DNA from: Bacteroidota bacterium
Lineage (GTDB): Bacteria > Bacteroidota > Bacteroidia > Bacteroidales > JACABE01
NCBI GenBank assembly: GCA_026391675.1
Contig: JAPLDQ010000002.1
Location: 1 to 32,696 of the forward strand
DNA: 32,696 nt
Direction: 5' to 3'
A program made the translations under genes and the position numbers. Every line of letters begins with the position of its first letter. The stretch's first letter is position 1. The notes under the pieces are model-generated. The model did not search any database. It was not told the origin of the DNA and saw only the letters and a list, made by a program, of their open reading frames with translations. Below, one piece after another: positions 3,575-10,882 of this stretch.

Positions 3575-4603
3575 GTGAAAAGTCGAAAATATTACTCAAA
3601 TATACTAACTCTGCTATTATTCATGTTTCCGTCACTGTTAACAGGACAAGATATTCATTTTTCGCAATACATGAATTCTCCGCTGAATCTGAATCCTGCA
3701 CAAACTGGATTTTTCAGGGGTAGCAGCCGATTTGTATTAAATCATCGAAATCAGTGGGCTTCAGTTACCATACCTTATTCAACCTTTTCCGGCTCTTTCG
3801 ACATGCAATTGCTCAAAAGAAAATTCAAACAGGATATCATAGGCCTTGGAATCGTATTCAGCAATGATAAAGCTGGTGATGCAGCAATGGGAACTACACA
3901 GGGAAGTCTATCATTGTCATACACCAAGGGATTAAACAGAAGAAACAGTCATTTTTTATCCGTTGGTATTCAAGGTGGTGCTGCCCAGCATAGAGTTGAC
4001 TATACCAAGTTAAGTTTCGATAATCAATACAATGGAGATCATTATGATCCCAGCCTTTATAATGGTGAAAACTTTTCAAAAAGTAATTTCTTTTATTTTG
4101 ATATTTCATCAGGCGTTCATTGGTACCTGCAGTTACAGGACCAGCTTATATTTAATGCAGGTTTCTCAGCATTTCATCTTAATCAGCCTCAGCTTTCTTT
4201 TTTCAATAATAGCGATGTAATATTATATACCCGCTATGTTTTTTATGGAAATGCAGCTATTGGCCTGGGTGTAAATACCGATATGATCCCTTCCTTACTG
4301 ATTATGAAACAGGGACCTTATACAGAATTTTGTATAGGGACTGATTTTAAATTCATAAGCAACAGCAATTTATATTACTATTCGGCTATTACTACCGGTA
4401 TCTTTCTCAGGAATAAAGATGCTGTAATTATAAAAGCCGGATTGGAACAACAAAAATGGACGTTTGGTATCAGTTATGATTTTAATTTTTCTGACCTGAC
4501 ACCGGCCAGTAAATACCTGGGTGGTTACGAAATATCCATCAGTTATATCGTCAATCAAACACGTCCAAAGAAAGCTAAAGATATACCTTGCCCTATATTT
4601 TAA
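3575..4603 (+). CDS. PorP/SprF family outer-membrane protein
   Basis: Predicted outer-membrane beta-barrel of the PorP/SprF family, which is linked to secretion or surface attachment of type B T9SS cargo. A GTG start lies 3 bp after the adhesin stop, and no better start is near. The N-terminus has a signal peptide ending at LLTGQ, then the family hallmark QDIHFSQYMNSPLNLNPAQTG, with the following NHRNQW. The rest alternates aromatic and glycine-rich strands, as expected of a ~14-strand barrel. The length of 342 residues is within the usual 300-350. The tight spacing to the cargo gene and to the OmpA-like gene 9 bp downstream suggests one transcript. Inference: this paralogue is dedicated to the preceding cargo rather than being the core machine component, because the core genes porK-N are not nearby. 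Confidence 0.92.
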   Translation: MKSRKYYSNILTLLLFMFPSLLTGQDIHFSQYMNSPLNLNPAQTGFFRGSSRFVLNHRNQWASVTIPYSTFSGSFDMQLLKRKFKQDIIGLGIVFSNDKAGDAAMGTTQGSLSLSYTKGLNRRNSHFLSVGIQGGAAQHRVDYTKLSFDNQYNGDHYDPSLYNGENFSKSNFFYFDISSGVHWYLQLQDQLIFNAGFSAFHLNQPQLSFFNNSDVILYTRYVFYGNAAIGLGVNTDMIPSLLIMKQGPYTEFCIGTDFKFISNSNLYYYSAITTGIFLRNKDAVIIKAGLEQQKWTFGISYDFNFSDLTPASKYLGGYEISISYIVNQTRPKKAKDIPCPIF

Positions 4604-4612
4604 ATAAAAAAA

Positions 4613-6940
4613 GTGAATACAAATAAAAATACATATCATTCATCATCCATTCAAAATAAAATTTTTGAATGTTTTGTGTATTTTACCAAATTCACGATTT
4701 GTATAGTTTTTTTATTGTTTAGTATTTCCTTATTTGCTCAAACGGATGAGAATTATAAGAAAACTGCCGATGATGCATTGCAAAACGGTGACTATTATAC
4801 TGCTGCATATTTTTACAAAATTTTGCTGGATAAAGACAATATGAATCTGGATTTTGCCTATCGATATGCCAATGCCAACAGGCTATATAACAACTATAAA
4901 GAAGCAGAATACTGGTTTGAATTCATTGTATCAAAAGATAATGCTGATAAATATCCTTTATCAGGCTTTTACCTGGCAGAAATGAATAAATACAATGCTA
5001 AATATGGATTTGCCATAAGTAATTACACAAACTATTATAACAAGAACAGGGAGAAGAAAGATTATTATACTCAAAAAGCCTTGCAGGAAATAAATTCCTG
5101 CAAATGGGCAGCAAAACATATCACTGATACACATAAAGTCGAAATTACGCATTTAGGTAAAACCATAAACACTCCTTTCTCAGAATTCGGAGCACAACAA
5201 TACGGCGATAGTCTGCTGATTTATTCCTCTTTAAGGGAAATTGCATCCAATGAATTTGAAAGTTTTTTACCTGAAGCCTACCTTTCGAAAGTTTATAGTT
5301 CATATATTTCTGTTGCAGGTTATTCTTCGGGACGCGAACTTAAAGGAAAAATCAACAGCGATGAAATAAATACAGCCAATTTAAGTATTGATAATAAAAC
5401 GATGCAGGCTTATTTTACCCGTTGCAGCAAAAACGAAGGAGCTGAAATGGTTTGTGCCATTTATCAAAGTGAATTTAAAGCCGGTAAATGGGAAAAAGCA
5501 AAGAAATTAAACAATAAAATAAATCTTGAAGGCTTTACTTCCACACAACCGTCAGTTGTAAATAGTAATGATAAGGAAATACTTTATTTTGCGAGTAACC
5601 GGCCCGGTGGATTCGGACAAATGGACATCTGGTATTCGATTAAAAATAACGGTGAATTCCAGCAGGCTGTAAACTTAGGCAGCAATATCAATACACCGGG
5701 TAATGAAATAACACCTTTTTATGATACAAAATCACTGGAACTATATTTTGCTTCTGACTGGCATTTTGGCTTTGGCGGTTATGATAATTTCCATTCCAAA
5801 GGCGAATTAAACCAGTGGACAACAGTTGAAAATGCAGGTTTTCCGATTAATACAAGCTATAACGATTTATATTTTACAGTAAATGAAACAGAAAATGAAG
5901 GTTATTTAACCTCTAACCGGCTTGGCTCCTATTTTATTAAAGGAGAAACCTGCTGCAATGATATTTATGCCTATAAAATATTCAAAAAAGAAAAACCTGT
6001 AGAAGTAAAGAAAGATACAATTACCATTGAAGAAAGCATTAAAAAGCTGCTTCCTTTAACTTTGTATTTTCATAATGATGAACCGGATCCCAGTTGCATG
6101 AATACAACTACGGACAAAAACTACAAACAGACACTGGCTGACTATTATGCCATGAAGGACAAATATAAAGCTGAGTATTCAAAAGGCCTGAAACGTGAAG
6201 AATACCAGAAAGCCATCAATGATATTGATACATTTTTCATTAAAGAAGTAGGTGCCGGTTTTAAATCCTTAGAATTGTTTACCAGCCTTCTTTTGCGCGA
6301 TTTACAAAGAGGTAATGAAATCCGTATAACGGTTAAAGGTTATGCAAGTCCGTTAAATACCGATGAATACAATACCAACCTTAGTAAAAGACGTATTTCC
6401 AGCTTGATTAATTTCATGAAAGAATTCAATAACGGCATTTTAAAGCCTTATATGGAAGACAGCAATACCAAAGCAAAACTGATAGTGTATGAAGAACCTC
6501 TTGGGAAATCCATGGCCAGCAAAACCGTAAGTGATAATCCCAACGATCTGCGTAACTCTGTTTACAGCAAAGCCGCAGCACTGGAACGCAAGATTCAGAT
6601 ATTGTATTATGATTATACCAAAGAGGTGGATTCAACACCGTTGCTTAAATTCTTGATCGATTCCATTAATTTGGGGAAATTAAACCCAACAACAACCAAT
6701 GCATTTAGTATCCGCTTTAAAAATGCGGGCAAATATCCGTTTAGCATCAGTGATGTTAGTACAGATTGCAGCTGCATTAAATATTATTTCGATGAAACAG
6801 CCATATCTGCAGGAAAAGAAGGCGTAATAAGGATACTGATAGTGCCCGATGAAAGAAAAGGGCTGAAAAAGCAAATCATCACGTTGACTTTATCTCCTTT
6901 TAATAAAAAAGTTACCTTGCCTGTTAGATTTGAGGAATGA
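4613..6940 (+). CDS. PorE-like OmpA-family protein with TPR, PD40 propeller and C-terminal DUF1573-like domain
   Basis: Envelope protein resembling the T9SS-associated PorE architecture. A signal peptide (hydrophobic FLLFSISLFAQ) is followed by TPR-like helices (~47-165), WD40/PD40-type propeller blades (~185-470; e.g. ILYFASNRPGGFGQMDIWYS and ELYFASDWHFGFGGYDNF), and an OmpA-like domain (~490-665) with GYASP and NLSKRRISSLINFM. The last ~85 residues (from about residue 690; FRFKNAG-type strand, DCSCIKYYF, IRILIVPDERKG) resemble DUF1573, an Ig-like domain. OmpA-like domains usually bind peptidoglycan, so it may anchor the cargo/PorP pair to the cell wall (inference). The GTG at 4613 gives a long 43-residue leader. 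An in-frame GTG at 4676 would give a more normal 22-residue signal peptide and may be the true start. It is the last gene of the unit; no U-tract terminator follows, only the repeat beginning at 6965. Confidence 0.85.
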   Translation: MNTNKNTYHSSSIQNKIFECFVYFTKFTICIVFLLFSISLFAQTDENYKKTADDALQNGDYYTAAYFYKILLDKDNMNLDFAYRYANANRLYNNYKEAEYWFEFIVSKDNADKYPLSGFYLAEMNKYNAKYGFAISNYTNYYNKNREKKDYYTQKALQEINSCKWAAKHITDTHKVEITHLGKTINTPFSEFGAQQYGDSLLIYSSLREIASNEFESFLPEAYLSKVYSSYISVAGYSSGRELKGKINSDEINTANLSIDNKTMQAYFTRCSKNEGAEMVCAIYQSEFKAGKWEKAKKLNNKINLEGFTSTQPSVVNSNDKEILYFASNRPGGFGQMDIWYSIKNNGEFQQAVNLGSNINTPGNEITPFYDTKSLELYFASDWHFGFGGYDNFHSKGELNQWTTVENAGFPINTSYNDLYFTVNETENEGYLTSNRLGSYFIKGETCCNDIYAYKIFKKEKPVEVKKDTITIEESIKKLLPLTLYFHNDEPDPSCMNTTTDKNYKQTLADYYAMKDKYKAEYSKGLKREEYQKAINDIDTFFIKEVGAGFKSLELFTSLLLRDLQRGNEIRITVKGYASPLNTDEYNTNLSKRRISSLINFMKEFNNGILKPYMEDSNTKAKLIVYEEPLGKSMASKTVSDNPNDLRNSVYSKAAALERKIQILYYDYTKEVDSTPLLKFLIDSINLGKLNPTTTNAFSIRFKNAGKYPFSISDVSTDCSCIKYYFDETAISAGKEGVIRILIVPDERKGLKKQIITLTLSPFNKKVTLPVRFEE

Positions 6941-6964
6941 TTAATTTTTTTATCTCCCCACAAA

Positions 6965-7121
6965 TTTTGTTACAAGCACAATATTAGTAATTTCCTTACA
7001 AAAAATATCAAAAAATTATCGAGTAACTCCGCTTAGCGGATATGATATTTATTTTATCCGATAAATGGGAGGAAAAACATGTGTTCTTATCTGCTAATCG
7101 GCTGAAGAAGCCGATAAGTGG
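6965..7121. repeat. Composite palindromic repeat, copy 1 (REP/BIME-like), left of RAYT
   Basis: This 157-bp element is a diverged direct repeat of 7889-8045. Shared blocks run in the same order: TTTTGTTAyAAGCACAATAT at the left, a short perfect palindrome TCCGCTTAGCGGA (7028-7040) followed by TATGATATT, then ATAAATGG, and finally a long imperfect palindrome (7091-7121). In this copy the long hairpin extends outward with TTCTTATC/GATAAGAA, giving a stem spanning 7084-7128. It lies between the end of the OmpA-like gene and the stop codon of the RAYT gene. Confidence 0.85.
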
Positions 7122-7128
7122 ATAAGAA
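7084..7128. repeat. REP-like long palindrome A (extended stem)
   Basis: The arms CTGCTAATCGGC (7091-7102) and GCCGATAAGTGG (7110-7121) flank a TGAAGAA loop region. The outer arms TTCTTATC and GATAAGAA lengthen the stem. There is one A/A mismatch in the stem, as in the other two copies. Relative to those copies, the C-to-T changes in both arms make T/G and G/T pairs, which an RNA or single-stranded hairpin can tolerate. A TTAT tetranucleotide precedes the core. Confidence 0.85.
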
Positions 7129-7190
7129 TAAAGCAATACATCTTCCTAACTTAATAAATTTAAATTATATATATTCTGTAAAATGAATTT

Positions 7191-7784
7191 TTATTCATTT
7201 TCATATAAATCAGAAATCTTTTTATCTTCTAAATGAGTATATGACTGATTGTAAAAATCTTTTTTATCAATATTAATAAATTGATAAGCTAATTCTTTAT
7301 TTAATAATGTTCCATTTCTAAATCCAATATAATCAGGAAATGAAGAAAATTCCCAATCTTCAATTTTATCAACTAATTGAGCAACTTTAGGATTTTGATG
7401 AATATAAAAAACACAATTTCTTAAATATTCTTCTTTGTTAAAATTCAATCGCTTAGCTTTTGTTTGATGAGAAAATAACGAACCTTTTCTGTTTTGTTGT
7501 CTATTAATAGCTTGAGTGTAAGAACTTAACATAATACCTATTGATTTTGCCAATTCTTGAGTATAAATATTATCTTTTGAATTTATTAATTTTTCAGCTT
7601 CCTTTTTTACATTAATAAGCAAATGAAAATGATTGGGCATCAAACAATAAGCTATAATATCAGAATAAGGTAAAATATGTATTCTTAGTTTCTTTATAAA
7701 AAATAGATAGTTTTCTCTTGTGTAAAAAACTTGCTCATTACTTCTGTTATAAACATGATATGTAAAATCTTCTTTAAAATTCAT
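7191..7784 (-). CDS. REP-associated tyrosine transposase (RAYT, Y1_Tnp/IS200-like HUH family)
   Basis: Single-domain Y1 HUH endonuclease of 197 residues. These enzymes nick and join single-stranded DNA at REP hairpins. Visible features are the N-terminal YHVYNRSNEQVFY motif (~9-21), typical of this group, the HUH motif in CLMPNHFHLLIN (His52, His54), a likely catalytic Tyr89 in SSYTQAIN, the downstream RKGSLFSHQTKAKRL block, and IHQNPKVAQLV near the C-terminus. Unlike an IS200 element it has no obvious terminal inverted repeats. It lies between two ~157-bp palindromic direct repeats and beside a third palindrome, which fits a domesticated RAYT with its own REP family. The start is the ATG at 7784; no clear ribosome site is seen. 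It is very AT-rich compared with its neighbours, consistent with acquisition by transfer (inference). Confidence 0.9.
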   Translation of the reverse strand: MNFKEDFTYHVYNRSNEQVFYTRENYLFFIKKLRIHILPYSDIIAYCLMPNHFHLLINVKKEAEKLINSKDNIYTQELAKSIGIMLSSYTQAINRQQNRKGSLFSHQTKAKRLNFNKEEYLRNCVFYIHQNPKVAQLVDKIEDWEFSSFPDYIGFRNGTLLNKELAYQFINIDKKDFYNQSYTHLEDKKISDLYENE

Positions 7785-7833
7785 ATCTATTTAGTTTTAT
7801 TATTAGCACTTTAGTCTATATATTTATTTTTAT

Positions 7834-7864
7834 CCGCTAATCGGCAGAAGAAGCCGATAAGCGG
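7834..7864. repeat. REP-like long palindrome B
   Basis: 31-bp imperfect palindrome: CCGCTAATCGGC, loop AGAAGAA, GCCGATAAGCGG. There is a single A/A mismatch in an otherwise complementary 12-bp stem, and TTAT sits immediately 5'. It lies 50 bp upstream of the RAYT start codon and has the same orientation as copies A and C. Confidence 0.88.
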
Positions 7865-7885
7865 AAGGAAGTTCCAGCTTCCTTC
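7864..7885. repeat. Short perfect hairpin adjoining palindrome B
   Basis: GAAGGAAG and CTTCCTTC are complementary around a 6-base loop (TTCCAG). It abuts the right arm of palindrome B and ends 3 bp before copy 2 of the composite repeat. Its role is unknown. Confidence 0.6.
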
Positions 7886-7888
7886 ATA

Positions 7889-8045
7889 TTTTGTTATAAG
7901 CACAATATTAGCAATTTTTTGAGTAAAAATATTAAAAAAGAAAAATATCTCAGTACCTCCGCTTAGCGGATATGATATTATCTTATAAATGGAACAAAAT
8001 GCATCTTTTTTTATCCGCTAATCGGCTGAAAAAGCCGATAAGCGG
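7889..8045. repeat. Composite palindromic repeat, copy 2 (REP/BIME-like), right of RAYT
   Basis: Diverged direct repeat of 6965-7121 with the same 157-bp length and block order: TTTTGTTATAAGCACAATAT, short palindrome TCCGCTTAGCGGA (7958-7970), TATGATATT, ATAAATGG, and the long palindrome at 8015-8045. It ends 8 bp before the stop codon of the AddB-like gene, which reads towards it. Confidence 0.85.
8015..8045. repeat. REP-like long palindrome C
   Basis: CCGCTAATCGGC and GCCGATAAGCGG flank TGAAAAA, with TTAT immediately 5' (8011-8014). The stem and single A/A mismatch are identical to palindrome B. On the minus strand it follows the AddB-like stop codon but is not followed by a U-tract, so it is not a standard intrinsic terminator. 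Confidence 0.88.
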
Positions 8046-8053
8046 GAGAAGAG

Positions 8054-10882
8054 CTACCTACCGCAAATTTCTTTATATGCACAGTATTCGCAGTTTTCTA
8101 CTTTTTCGGTTTGTTCAAAAGGAATTGAAACATTGTATATTTCGTGGAATAAATCAGTTAAAATCTTTTCAAATTCATTCAGATCATGCAAGCTTAAATT
8201 ATCATTTCCTTTGTAATTCATATTCATATATCCTTTTGCCTGATTACGCAAAGAAATAATACCAGTCTGAAGCACTTTATCATTCTCAGGATGTTCTTTG
8301 CTGAACAGCAAAGCATAAATTAATAACTGCAAACTTTTGCCAAATTTTGAATCAGTCAGCAACAAATCAGGTTCTGTGAGATTCAGTTCTTTTTGATCTG
8401 TATTTCCTGTTTTGTAATCAATTATACGAACTGAAACAGCAGTGCTGTCAATCCTGTCTACAAAACCTTTGAGTTTTACAAAAGGCACTTTATCATTTAT
8501 AAAGCAATCCAGGATACATTCCAGTTTCTGCTCCAGCATGGAAATGCTTAAAAATGTATTTTCCTTTTCCAGTTTTGCAATATGAGCTGCTTCTGCTTTT
8601 AAATAATTTTCAATAAAAACATTGGCCATTTTTGCTGTAAGCAAATTAATACCAAAACTGATATCCCCATCCTTATATCTTTCTTTAAAATATTTGGTGG
8701 TCAGGGCTTCCACTTTTGGCAACATTGCTATTATATCAGCTTCATGTATAATTTTGCCGATAAAGGGCTGATACAACTCAGCCAGGGTATCATGTATGGT
8801 TGAACCCAGGGTATTGGCTGCAATGGTTTCCTCGGTTTCTTCCACTTCATCAAGTCCTGCAACATATCTGAAATAAAACTGCAGCGAGCAATTTACATAG
8901 GTATTCAAAGCACTTGCCGAAAAGCCTTTCATTGCCATTTCGTTCAGACGCTGCTGGATATTTGCGTGTTTATTAATCCGGATTGGCTTGTTTTGCAGAC
9001 TTTCTGAAGCTGTGATATTCAGTAATTGCTCTTTAAATATGATATTGTGATTATATTTAGGCAATTCATTTACAATCTGATAAATAAACCTGCTTTTGTC
9101 ACCACCTGAAAACTCATCCGCTTCGGTATTGTATAAAATAAATATCTTTTTCGCCCTCTGCAGCAATCGATAAAAATGATAGGCAAAAATGGCATCTTTA
9201 TCGGCATAATCAGGTAAGCCAAACTGACGCTTAATATCCAGAGGTATAAAAGAATTAAAACTGCGGGAAGCCGGTAAAACGCCTTCATTTACAGATAACA
9301 TCACTACATTTTCAAAATCAAGTGTACGGGTTTCAAGCATACCCATTACCTGCAATCCTTCCAATGGTTCGCCATAAAAAGGAATACTTGTAAGTGAAGC
9401 CAGCTTGGAAAATATTCTACGGAAAGTTTTTACTGTGATAAATGACTGTTGCAGTTCAGGCAGATTCTCCAACTGAAACATTAATTTTGCAAAATGATAC
9501 AGGTATTCATCTTCAAGTATTCTGTTTTCTTCTGCCTTAAAATGGCTGTGCAAACGCTCTGTTAAACCTTTCAGATGTGCAATGGCATCTTTAGGATTTT
9601 CCCATATCAGGAAAATATTGGCTATCATATAATCATCAGCAGTGATAAGGTTTTCAATCCATTTAATCAATTCAGAAGAATCATAAAAAATACGATTGGA
9701 AGTAGTTATGCTTTTTACTATAGCATCAAAATTATATTCGCTAAGGAGATAAGGATGACTCAATACCTTGATAATGTCTTTAAAATAAAAACCATTCTTC
9801 TTTTTCTCAGGATTGGATAAACGTATCCTGTTTTCGTGCATTAAAAGTATGGAATCTATTAAATTAAACAGGACTGCATGTTTGAAAGGTAAACCCATGG
9901 TAACATTAAATGCTTTGGCTTCTTCAGGAATTGAATGCAGGGCAGGAATCAGGAGGTTTTCATCATTTAAAACCAATGCAGTATGTTCAAGATTACCTTT
10001 TTCATTATATAATTGTTTTAAAATACTTCCCGCATACTTAACCTGACCAATTTTCATGGGAATACCAATAATATTGATTTCCTTAACATCTGTTTTAAGA
10101 TTATTATCCGTCCACTCAAAACCGGCATTTAGCCACAATTCAGCATATTCCCTCAAAAAATGACCTGCTTCCTGCTGTTTGTTGTTTACATAATAGGCAT
10201 CAGCATCCCAGAGGCATTTAGCTATACCTTCTTTTGTAAGGTATTTAATGATAGTTTCTTCTGATTTGGTTAATGCATTAAATCCTGCAAAAACCAATTG
10301 TTTCCATTTATTATCAGTAAAAACAGTTGATAAATTTTCAGCAACATAACGGTATAAATTCCCCTGATAAGCCTGATTGCGGGTTTGTAAATGCTCGTTT
10401 AACTTCTGATAATATGTAAAAAGGGATTGGTAAAACTTTAAATATTTTTTTTGAAAAGCTGTAAGGTCTTTACCATCCAGATTCCAAAGGCTTATTGCTT
10501 TTAATTCGCTCAAATAGCTGAATAGTTCATGTGCATCAGCAAGGTATAAATCAATTTCATTAAAATCATGCAGCATCATTTCGCCCATGCTGATAAACTC
10601 ATCGAAACTTCGTTTATCTTCTTTTTCCAGTTCGCAATGTATGCTGTATAATTCGAAAAGCAAAGCTGTATTATCGGCAATTGCTTTATCAGCTACCAAC
10701 GCTATAAAATCTTCAATGGCAAAAATCTGTGGGGAAAATATATTCTTCTTTAGTTTTCCTGAAATAAAGTTTTTTAAATACAGACTGGCCCTGCGATTGG
10801 GTAAGACTATACAAACATTTTCCAAATCAGCCGGATAATGTGCTAAAATATAGTCAGCTGTTTTTTGTAAAAATGTTTCCAT
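8054..10882 (-). CDS. AddB-like PD-(D/E)XK nuclease with Fe-S cysteines and inactive helicase-like N-terminus
   Basis: 942-residue protein of the AddB/RexB type, likely the nuclease-bearing partner in double-strand-break end processing. The N-terminus (VLPNRRASLYLKNF) lacks a Walker A GxxGxGKT, so the helicase fold is probably inactive as an ATPase. The middle region keeps helicase-like motifs (ENVVMLSVNEGVLPASR). The C-terminal nuclease has Asp809 (GFVDRID), Asp822 and Lys824 (IIDYKTG). Four cysteines, Cys665 (YVNCSLQFYF) and Cys931/934/940 (CEYCAYKEIC), match the iron-sulphur staple of AddB nucleases. No AddA/UvrD-like helicase is adjacent on either side, so any partner must be encoded elsewhere. 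A palindromic repeat lies directly after the stop. Confidence 0.88.
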   Translation of the reverse strand: METFLQKTADYILAHYPADLENVCIVLPNRRASLYLKNFISGKLKKNIFSPQIFAIEDFIALVADKAIADNTALLFELYSIHCELEKEDKRSFDEFISMGEMMLHDFNEIDLYLADAHELFSYLSELKAISLWNLDGKDLTAFQKKYLKFYQSLFTYYQKLNEHLQTRNQAYQGNLYRYVAENLSTVFTDNKWKQLVFAGFNALTKSEETIIKYLTKEGIAKCLWDADAYYVNNKQQEAGHFLREYAELWLNAGFEWTDNNLKTDVKEINIIGIPMKIGQVKYAGSILKQLYNEKGNLEHTALVLNDENLLIPALHSIPEEAKAFNVTMGLPFKHAVLFNLIDSILLMHENRIRLSNPEKKKNGFYFKDIIKVLSHPYLLSEYNFDAIVKSITTSNRIFYDSSELIKWIENLITADDYMIANIFLIWENPKDAIAHLKGLTERLHSHFKAEENRILEDEYLYHFAKLMFQLENLPELQQSFITVKTFRRIFSKLASLTSIPFYGEPLEGLQVMGMLETRTLDFENVVMLSVNEGVLPASRSFNSFIPLDIKRQFGLPDYADKDAIFAYHFYRLLQRAKKIFILYNTEADEFSGGDKSRFIYQIVNELPKYNHNIIFKEQLLNITASESLQNKPIRINKHANIQQRLNEMAMKGFSASALNTYVNCSLQFYFRYVAGLDEVEETEETIAANTLGSTIHDTLAELYQPFIGKIIHEADIIAMLPKVEALTTKYFKERYKDGDISFGINLLTAKMANVFIENYLKAEAAHIAKLEKENTFLSISMLEQKLECILDCFINDKVPFVKLKGFVDRIDSTAVSVRIIDYKTGNTDQKELNLTEPDLLLTDSKFGKSLQLLIYALLFSKEHPENDKVLQTGIISLRNQAKGYMNMNYKGNDNLSLHDLNEFEKILTDLFHEIYNVSIPFEQTEKVENCEYCAYKEICGR

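Follow-up and report, generated by a model that had tools for sequence, protein, structure and literature searches.

A RAYT with its own REP-like hairpins between composite direct repeats in a Bacteroidota genome

The gap between two convergent genes of a Bacteroidota bacterium very probably holds a REPtron-type locus—one RAYT together with its own REP-like hairpins, for which we propose a mechanism and a local duplication of the repeat unit. The locus is a RAYT/REP system without a GT[AG]G foot; the arrangement is of a recognised kind, and the repeat is its own. It represents a REP family that is new but of a known kind, and such a layout is the usual one in its clade. RAYTs are a standard case of domesticated transposases; most studies have dealt with those of Proteobacteria and their GTAG REPs.

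The locus and its composite repeats

The window refers to the whole stretch of DNA analysed here, a contig of 32,696 nucleotides (C2) from a genome of 4.04 Mb in 48 contigs (G000). The RAYT and its repeats occupy the gap between two convergent genes (Table 1): repeat A starts 14-25 positions past the stop of the left gene, and repeat B ends 9 positions before the end of the right one. At gathering thresholds, the window has no match in Rfam.

An earlier note, made from the sequence alone, had placed the RAYT between two direct repeats of equal length, and this description holds. A and B each comprise 157 bp, are 77.8% identical over 167 alignment columns (E 9e-34) and are truly related. The block order, which the earlier note called identical, is the same in both—the blocks themselves differ by small indels. 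Identities amount to 44/58 for the left non-palindromic part, 29/33 for the short palindrome with its flank, 21/36 for the spacer, and 32/36 for the long hairpin. For the left part, the identity of 0.76 compares with at most 0.62 in 500 shuffles; the spacer alone is not above chance, since its 0.58 is reached by shuffles going up to 0.59. Every unit of the window pairs one short perfect palindrome—TCCGCTTAGCGGA, exact in both repeats—with one long imperfect hairpin, as the earlier note had it, and the third long palindrome that it reported upstream of the RAYT start is likewise present.

Folded as single-stranded DNA, the three long hairpins are matched in stability by none of 200 shuffles, and the two short palindromes (13 bp, core CCGCTTAGCGG) by 2 of 200. 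All three long hairpins of the window share one orientation. Read on the minus strand, the one in repeat A has T.T as its central mismatch, in addition to two further changed bases. A GT[AG]G foot directly 5′ of the three long hairpins is absent on both strands.

Table 1 Coordinates of the features in the window and of the duplicated gene ends at related RAYT loci.
Feature	Sequence	Positions	Strand	Remarks
Left neighbour gene	window	4613-6940	plus	convergent with right neighbour
Composite direct repeat A	window	6965-7121		157 bp; similarity begins at 6954
Short palindrome in A	window	7028-7040		TCCGCTTAGCGGA, exact; ssDNA fold z -3.4
Long REP-like hairpin in A	window	7086-7121		z -6.0
RAYT (TnpA-REP-like HUH-Y1 single-strand transposase)	window	7191-7784	minus	ORF of 197 aa, ATG start
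Third long REP-like hairpin	window	7830-7865		z -6.5; upstream of the RAYT, 45 bases from its start codon
Separate small hairpin	window	7864-7885		GAAGGAAG..CTTCCTTC; T-rich tail, terminator-like on the plus strand
Composite direct repeat B	window	7889-8045		157 bp; similarity begins at 7878
Short palindrome in B	window	7958-7970		TCCGCTTAGCGGA, exact; ssDNA fold z -3.2
Long REP-like hairpin in B	window	8010-8045		z -5.8
Right neighbour gene, PD-(D/E)XK nuclease	window	8054-10882	minus
Gene-end duplication, Lnb_N gene	L090	2655-2848 / 3831-4026		196 bp, 90%
Gene-end duplication, MFS gene	L106	2781-2912 / 3584-3715
Gene-end duplication, AIR synthase related gene	L124	2867-2938 / 3690-3761
Gene-end duplication, methyltransferase gene	L146	2778-2818 / 3764-3804
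Gene-end duplication, ABC transporter gene	L093	2568-2696 / 3810-3937		129 bp, 99%

The RAYT protein

The protein matches the NCBIfam model REP_Tyr_transpos (NF047646) at E 5.6e-13 with 49 bits, below the curated cut-off of 80, and Pfam Y1_Tnp with 18.5 bits, below the cut-off of 23. It was aligned with 77 of 80 named loci, i.e., those without stops or frame breaks. All 78 aligned sequences match the NCBIfam model at E up to 0.01, and the HFH pair (H51, H53), Y126, N130, and P131 are invariant in 78/78. The HUH motif and the single catalytic tyrosine of a Y1 core are hence in place, and flanking hairpin (REP) copies accompany the gene—three long hairpins and two short palindromes. The AlphaFold model (pLDDT 93.1) finds its best fold match in 4er8, a complex of the E. 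coli RAYT with a REP hairpin (149 residues aligned, 15% of them identical; Z 14.8), followed by the IS608 transposase with Z 8.5. Foldseek likewise puts 4er8 on top. As judged with this predicted structure, the window gene is an intact RAYT. Four other RAYT-like loci exist in its own genome, matched at 35-53%.

A covarying stem with a central mismatch

For the hairpin stem, 17 hairpins were aligned over 39 columns: three from the window, one each from the congeners G002 and G001, and 12 from the sister genus G004. Pairing is found in 97.1% of the 204 stem cells and falls to 25-48% if the partner is slid along the stem. Changes on both sides affect five stem pairs, which 34/500 shuffles reach, and 22 stem cells, which 0/500 reach; further pair types are not above the shuffles (426/500 reach their number). 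These counts do not represent independent events, as the G004 rows are akin to one another. One site in G001 (C1:317209) fits the long pattern without the central mismatch and was excluded from the alignment, and the downstream hairpin of the G002 locus was missed by the regular expression and stands outside it.

This regular expression demanded TTA..TTAG and thereby fixed the mismatch letters, so the T.T in 17/17 rows is not evidence for a conserved mismatch. Independent evidence comes from pairs of an exact 11-mer, CCGCTWAGCGG: its middle letter W is the same in both arms of 13/13 close exact pairs (five in G000, one in G001, and seven in G004, the latter again related to one another). Since both arms carry the same middle base, a hairpin formed from them is interrupted at mid-stem by a mismatch of two like bases. 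Going by these sequence comparisons, the stem covaries and retains a central same-base mismatch.

Distribution of the palindromes

A BLAST search of its own genome finds the composite unit at the window only. The long hairpin was sought with up to 3 mismatches in 80 genomes—five family members, 50 with a listed RAYT match, and 25 not listed with one. It occurs three times in G000, always at the window locus, twice each in G001 and G002, once in G028, and in none of the other 76; controls gave 0. The G028 match has 3 mismatches, lies inside a gene, and was taken as chance. Among these 80 genomes, the long form is restricted to one genus, bar this one likely chance match.

A search for the exact 11-mer, limited to the five family genomes, gave 13 sites in G000 (control 1), and 5, 3, 1, and 14 sites in G001, G002, G003, and G004, respectively (controls 0). 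The G000 sites divide into two within the window repeats, ten forming five pairs elsewhere, and one inside a gene. Pairs are spaced by 48-51 bp in G000, which corresponds to loops of approximately 37-40 nt, by 51 bp for the one pair in G001, and by 17-18 bp for the seven pairs in G004, which make up short hairpins. The dispersed pairs may stem from another or an older system.

According to the earlier note, palindromes that occur in the genome at this locus only and also in relatives that lack the RAYT, or repeats that prove unrelated on alignment, would refute a new REP family. Half of this is seen here: in its own genome the long hairpin is confined to the locus, and the short palindrome is dispersed (13 sites against 1 for the control). 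Both occur in the congener G001, which carries no close RAYT, and the hairpin also stands at other intergenic sites there. The best matches to the window RAYT reach 51% in G001 (short pieces only), 41% in G003, and 32% in G004.

A related hairpin form exists in the sister genus G004. Its dispersed paired hairpins (L190, L196, and L209-L213) read ACCACTAAGCGG..CCGCTAAGTGGT and TCCGCTTAGCGG..CCGCTTAGCGGA. At 5/7 places a second hairpin of opposite orientation is matched, a REPIN-like layout; in REPINs and BIMEs, the dispersed unit consists of two inverted REPs, and in the window it consists of a short and a long palindrome. The family has the same stem and central mismatch as the window hairpins, which bears out their reading as REP-like. 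In G004, a RAYT matching these paired hairpins was not found; the only RAYT matched there has CCTGACAGG palindromes in its flanks. In G000 itself, two palindrome families adjoin at L063 (C22, 3850-4130), where two CCGCTTAGCGG-type pairs cluster with one CCTGACAGG palindrome.

RAYT loci and their flanking repeats

Nearly all taxon-named relatives among the 80 named loci belong to Bacteroidota. The best relative found outside its own genome lies in the congener G002, an uncultured Bacteroidales (L090, which includes the G002 stretch L175), and is 74% identical. Its neighbour genes are unlike those of the window, and the same long hairpin stands on both sides of it—inverted, accompanied by short palindromes, and with 3 mismatches to the pattern in the downstream copy. 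That the same hairpin flanks a RAYT in another species supports the earlier note in calling the gene a RAYT and the palindromes REP-like. The GC content of this relative is 29.6% compared with approximately 39% in its flanks.

Shared flanks are widespread. Comparing the 72 named loci with 300 bp on each side, 52 share a segment between both flanks at a score of at least 14, or 51 without L168, whose match is an artefact of an N run; mismatched flank pairs reach this in 8/354 and same-locus controls in 2/336 cases. An enlarged set of 152 loci, 144 of them distinct, combined the window and the 80 named loci with eleven loci of the family and 60 listed places taken in rank order, one stop-ridden match being skipped. 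Here, 75/128 RAYT loci with 300 bp on each side bear direct repeats of at least 30 bp on both sides, and 62/75 of these repeats contain a perfect stem of at least 7 bp. In this clade, it is hence common for a RAYT to be bracketed by directly repeated units that bear a hairpin, and the arrangement is not the distinctive one that the earlier note took it for.

Flanking palindromes also reach into some of the genes. A segment inside the gene matches the locus's own flanks at a score of at least 20 in 19/122 RAYT loci and in 1/487 mismatched comparisons. At L069 and L070 (G000 C42 and C40), the flanking palindrome is copied in frame between HUH and Y, a feature unique to subclass 2.4 (RAYT group 4) in the accessible sections of PMC6006769. 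The same holds for L071 (C47) by eye only, as its in-gene score is just 11 because the upstream palindrome falls within the extended ORF. The window RAYT bears no such insert (score 13). L069 and L070 are paralogous RAYTs at unrelated loci of one genome; they are 67% identical and carry related but different palindromes (CCTGACAGG.. and CCTTCCAGG..), a pattern that suggests joint divergence of gene and repeat. Two further loci show repeated RAYT sequences: L304 (G216 C1:1211091-1212190) holds two RAYT matches in tandem, and at L149 the hairpin and the start of the RAYT gene are repeated several times.

Comparison with known systems

By its features, and without placement in a tree, the system resembles subclass 2.6, i.e., RAYT group 5 (Quentin et al. 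2018, PMC6006769). The accessible sections of that work describe this subclass as mostly Bacteroidetes, with atypical flanking hairpins that lack GT[AG]G and have copies elsewhere in the genome, and with a GTAG-reading region that is not conserved. The window RAYT likewise resides in Bacteroidota, has atypical hairpins without GT[AG]G, and contains no W between HFH and Y126. Two features set the window apart from subclass 2.6 as described in those sections: the T.T/A.A mismatch in mid-stem and the bracketing composite repeats. For lack of the foot, the window hairpins do not belong to the canonical REPs of the GTAG class.

With the E. coli TnpA-REP and its REP/BIME sequences (4er8), the window shares the fold, the HUH motif with its tyrosine, and a mispaired bulge in mid-stem; for the E. 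coli protein, mispairing rather than sequence seems important according to the available portion of PMC8266576. Unlike that system, the window has no GTAG foot, a RAYT of low identity, and just three long hairpins instead of a large REP population. TIRYTs and TIRtrons, as far as the accessible text of PMC3733652 describes them, likewise have a RAYT-like gene whose bounding repeats are not GTAG REPs. Their repeats are long, terminal, and inverted, whereas A and B are direct and hairpin-bearing; the inverted long hairpins of the G002 relative come closer to this layout.

Mobility and alternative readings

Conservation of the surroundings is mixed. For 33 nearest RAYT pairs (at least 60% identity, 1-kb flanks; 19 more were skipped for too short flanks), neighbours are common on both sides in 12 cases, on one side in two, and on none in 19. 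Among the 19 pairs without common neighbours, seven share a flank segment at a score of at least 16, compared with 15/600 random pairs. At five loci, the end of a neighbouring gene is duplicated on both sides of the RAYT, with one copy within the intact gene and the other as a loose end (Table 1). A test for host-like repeats was passed by eight loci: L090, L106, L124, L146, L072, L304, L308, and L155. The hit at L072 is palindrome-bearing, that at L304 is a duplicated RAYT start, and L308 and L155 are weak at 72-74% identity; these four were set aside. L093 fails this test on its hairpin score. A scan for repeats of at least 22 bp without strong stems returned repeats of at least 40 bp at 7/128 RAYT loci (L090, L091, L106, L124, L146, L154, and L265) and at 0/233 control intervals, which gave four matches of 23-24 bp; those at L091 and L154 look like REPs. 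L093, at first the best candidate for a target duplication, was rejected: its relative L100 has the RAYT next to the same right-hand gene, which makes a local rearrangement, beside a RAYT that had not moved, a better reading of the L093 duplication than an insertion. The other gene-end duplications are compatible with insertion and a long duplication, although no empty site was obtained for them. For the G002 relative, a search for an empty site found the neighbouring Lnb_N gene in just 1/5 family genomes; a binning error of its contig is possible, as its GC content is 39% compared with 33-35% in five other G002 stretches.

These duplications bring up the possibility that the RAYT and its hairpins form an inserted mobile cassette that moves between genomes, with A and B as a long target duplication of intergenic DNA; we consider this unlikely. 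In its favor, A and B bound the whole insert, judging by the distances to the neighbour genes, and the RAYT gene has a GC content of 22.6% compared with 34.7% for the window. The nearest RAYT elsewhere, in G002, lies between duplicated host DNA, and both the five gene-end duplications and the excess of long low-stem repeats fit in. Moreover, G001 and G002 have an S41 peptidase gene, and not a RAYT, behind their orthologues of the right-hand gene, and G003 and G004 have other genes there. However, A and B hold REPs and differ at 22% of positions, and an empty site holding both window neighbours was not found in the family genomes G001-G004—where such a site is undefined, given the genes behind the right-gene orthologues and the unlike DNA behind the left-gene orthologues in G001, G002, and G003. 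The gene shared by L093 and L100 points to local rearrangement, 12 of the 33 nearest pairs keep their neighbours on both sides and two on one side, and RAYTs do not copy themselves according to the accessible part of PMC8049555. The suggestion of the earlier note that the A/B pair is the mobile unit itself thus finds neither a second copy of the unit in the genome nor an empty site. More generally, Bacteroidota RAYTs with their hairpins might relocate as units and leave direct duplications of 40-200 bp, A/B being one case, which appears doubtful to us; the duplicated neighbouring DNA would then often be a gene end. In the open-licence literature, no paper combining RAYT, REP, and target site duplication was found.

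Two further readings concern the function of the hairpins and the kind of element. Lying between two convergent genes, the hairpins might mainly serve as transcription terminators or stabilisers of mRNA 3′ ends, with the RAYT as a bystander. Two terminator-like sites are indeed found where shuffles let expect 0.4, namely the separate small hairpin and the short palindrome of repeat A. The three long hairpins, however, have no T-run behind them and are absent from the sites detected, and the same hairpin recurs beside a RAYT relative in another context and at the intergenic sites of G001, which makes this reading quite improbable. An ordinary insertion sequence of the IS200/IS605 type whose ends have decayed would share the HUH-Y1 superfamily fold, but is hardly credible: the best fold match is a RAYT and not IS608, and the Y1_Tnp score stays below the cut-off, while the five IS200-type genes of this genome—one with two internal stops—reach 94-101 bits. 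Nor does the window RAYT have the several near-identical copies of such elements; its own genome contains no near-identical copy of the full protein, the next best being 38% identical, and shorter pieces of another RAYT reach 53%. With these readings weighed, duplicated REP units are a better description of A and B than ends of a mobile element. For their origin, local duplication of the REP unit is the simplest explanation and a long target duplication the bolder one.

A proposed mechanism

For cleavage, strand choice, and the origin of the duplication in the REPtron-type locus, we infer a course of events with E. coli TnpA-REP and IS608 as models, as the available portion of PMC8266576 presents them. 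When the region becomes single-stranded, as in the lagging-strand template, the RAYT would recognise the hairpin fold of just one of the two strands. It might distinguish them by the unpaired like bases in mid-stem, which are T.T in one strand and A.A in the other. The RAYT could then nick beside the hairpin by means of Y126 and the metal site of the HFH pair, and rejoin the ends. REP copies or pairs would be moved or duplicated at a low rate in this way, with the RAYT itself kept single-copy. In A and B, a composite REP unit would be present twice, locally duplicated around the gene and made up of the short palindrome, the spacer, the long hairpin, and adjoining non-palindromic DNA. Several points speak against this explanation: the long hairpin has not spread in its own genome, G001 and G004 have their hairpins without a close RAYT, the GT[AG]G foot is absent, and the protein scores below the curated cut-offs of both NCBIfam and Pfam.

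Implications

The locus and its relatives constitute a small, well-bounded REP family without a GTAG foot, in a phylum whose REPs the accessible sections of PMC6006769 describe just as atypical for one large subclass. The conserved mismatch could distinguish the strands, which is open to in vitro testing. The gene-end duplications at five loci are a more interesting side lead than the bracketing by A and B: if they truly reflect insertion, this would call for a revision of the notion of RAYTs as genes that do not copy themselves.
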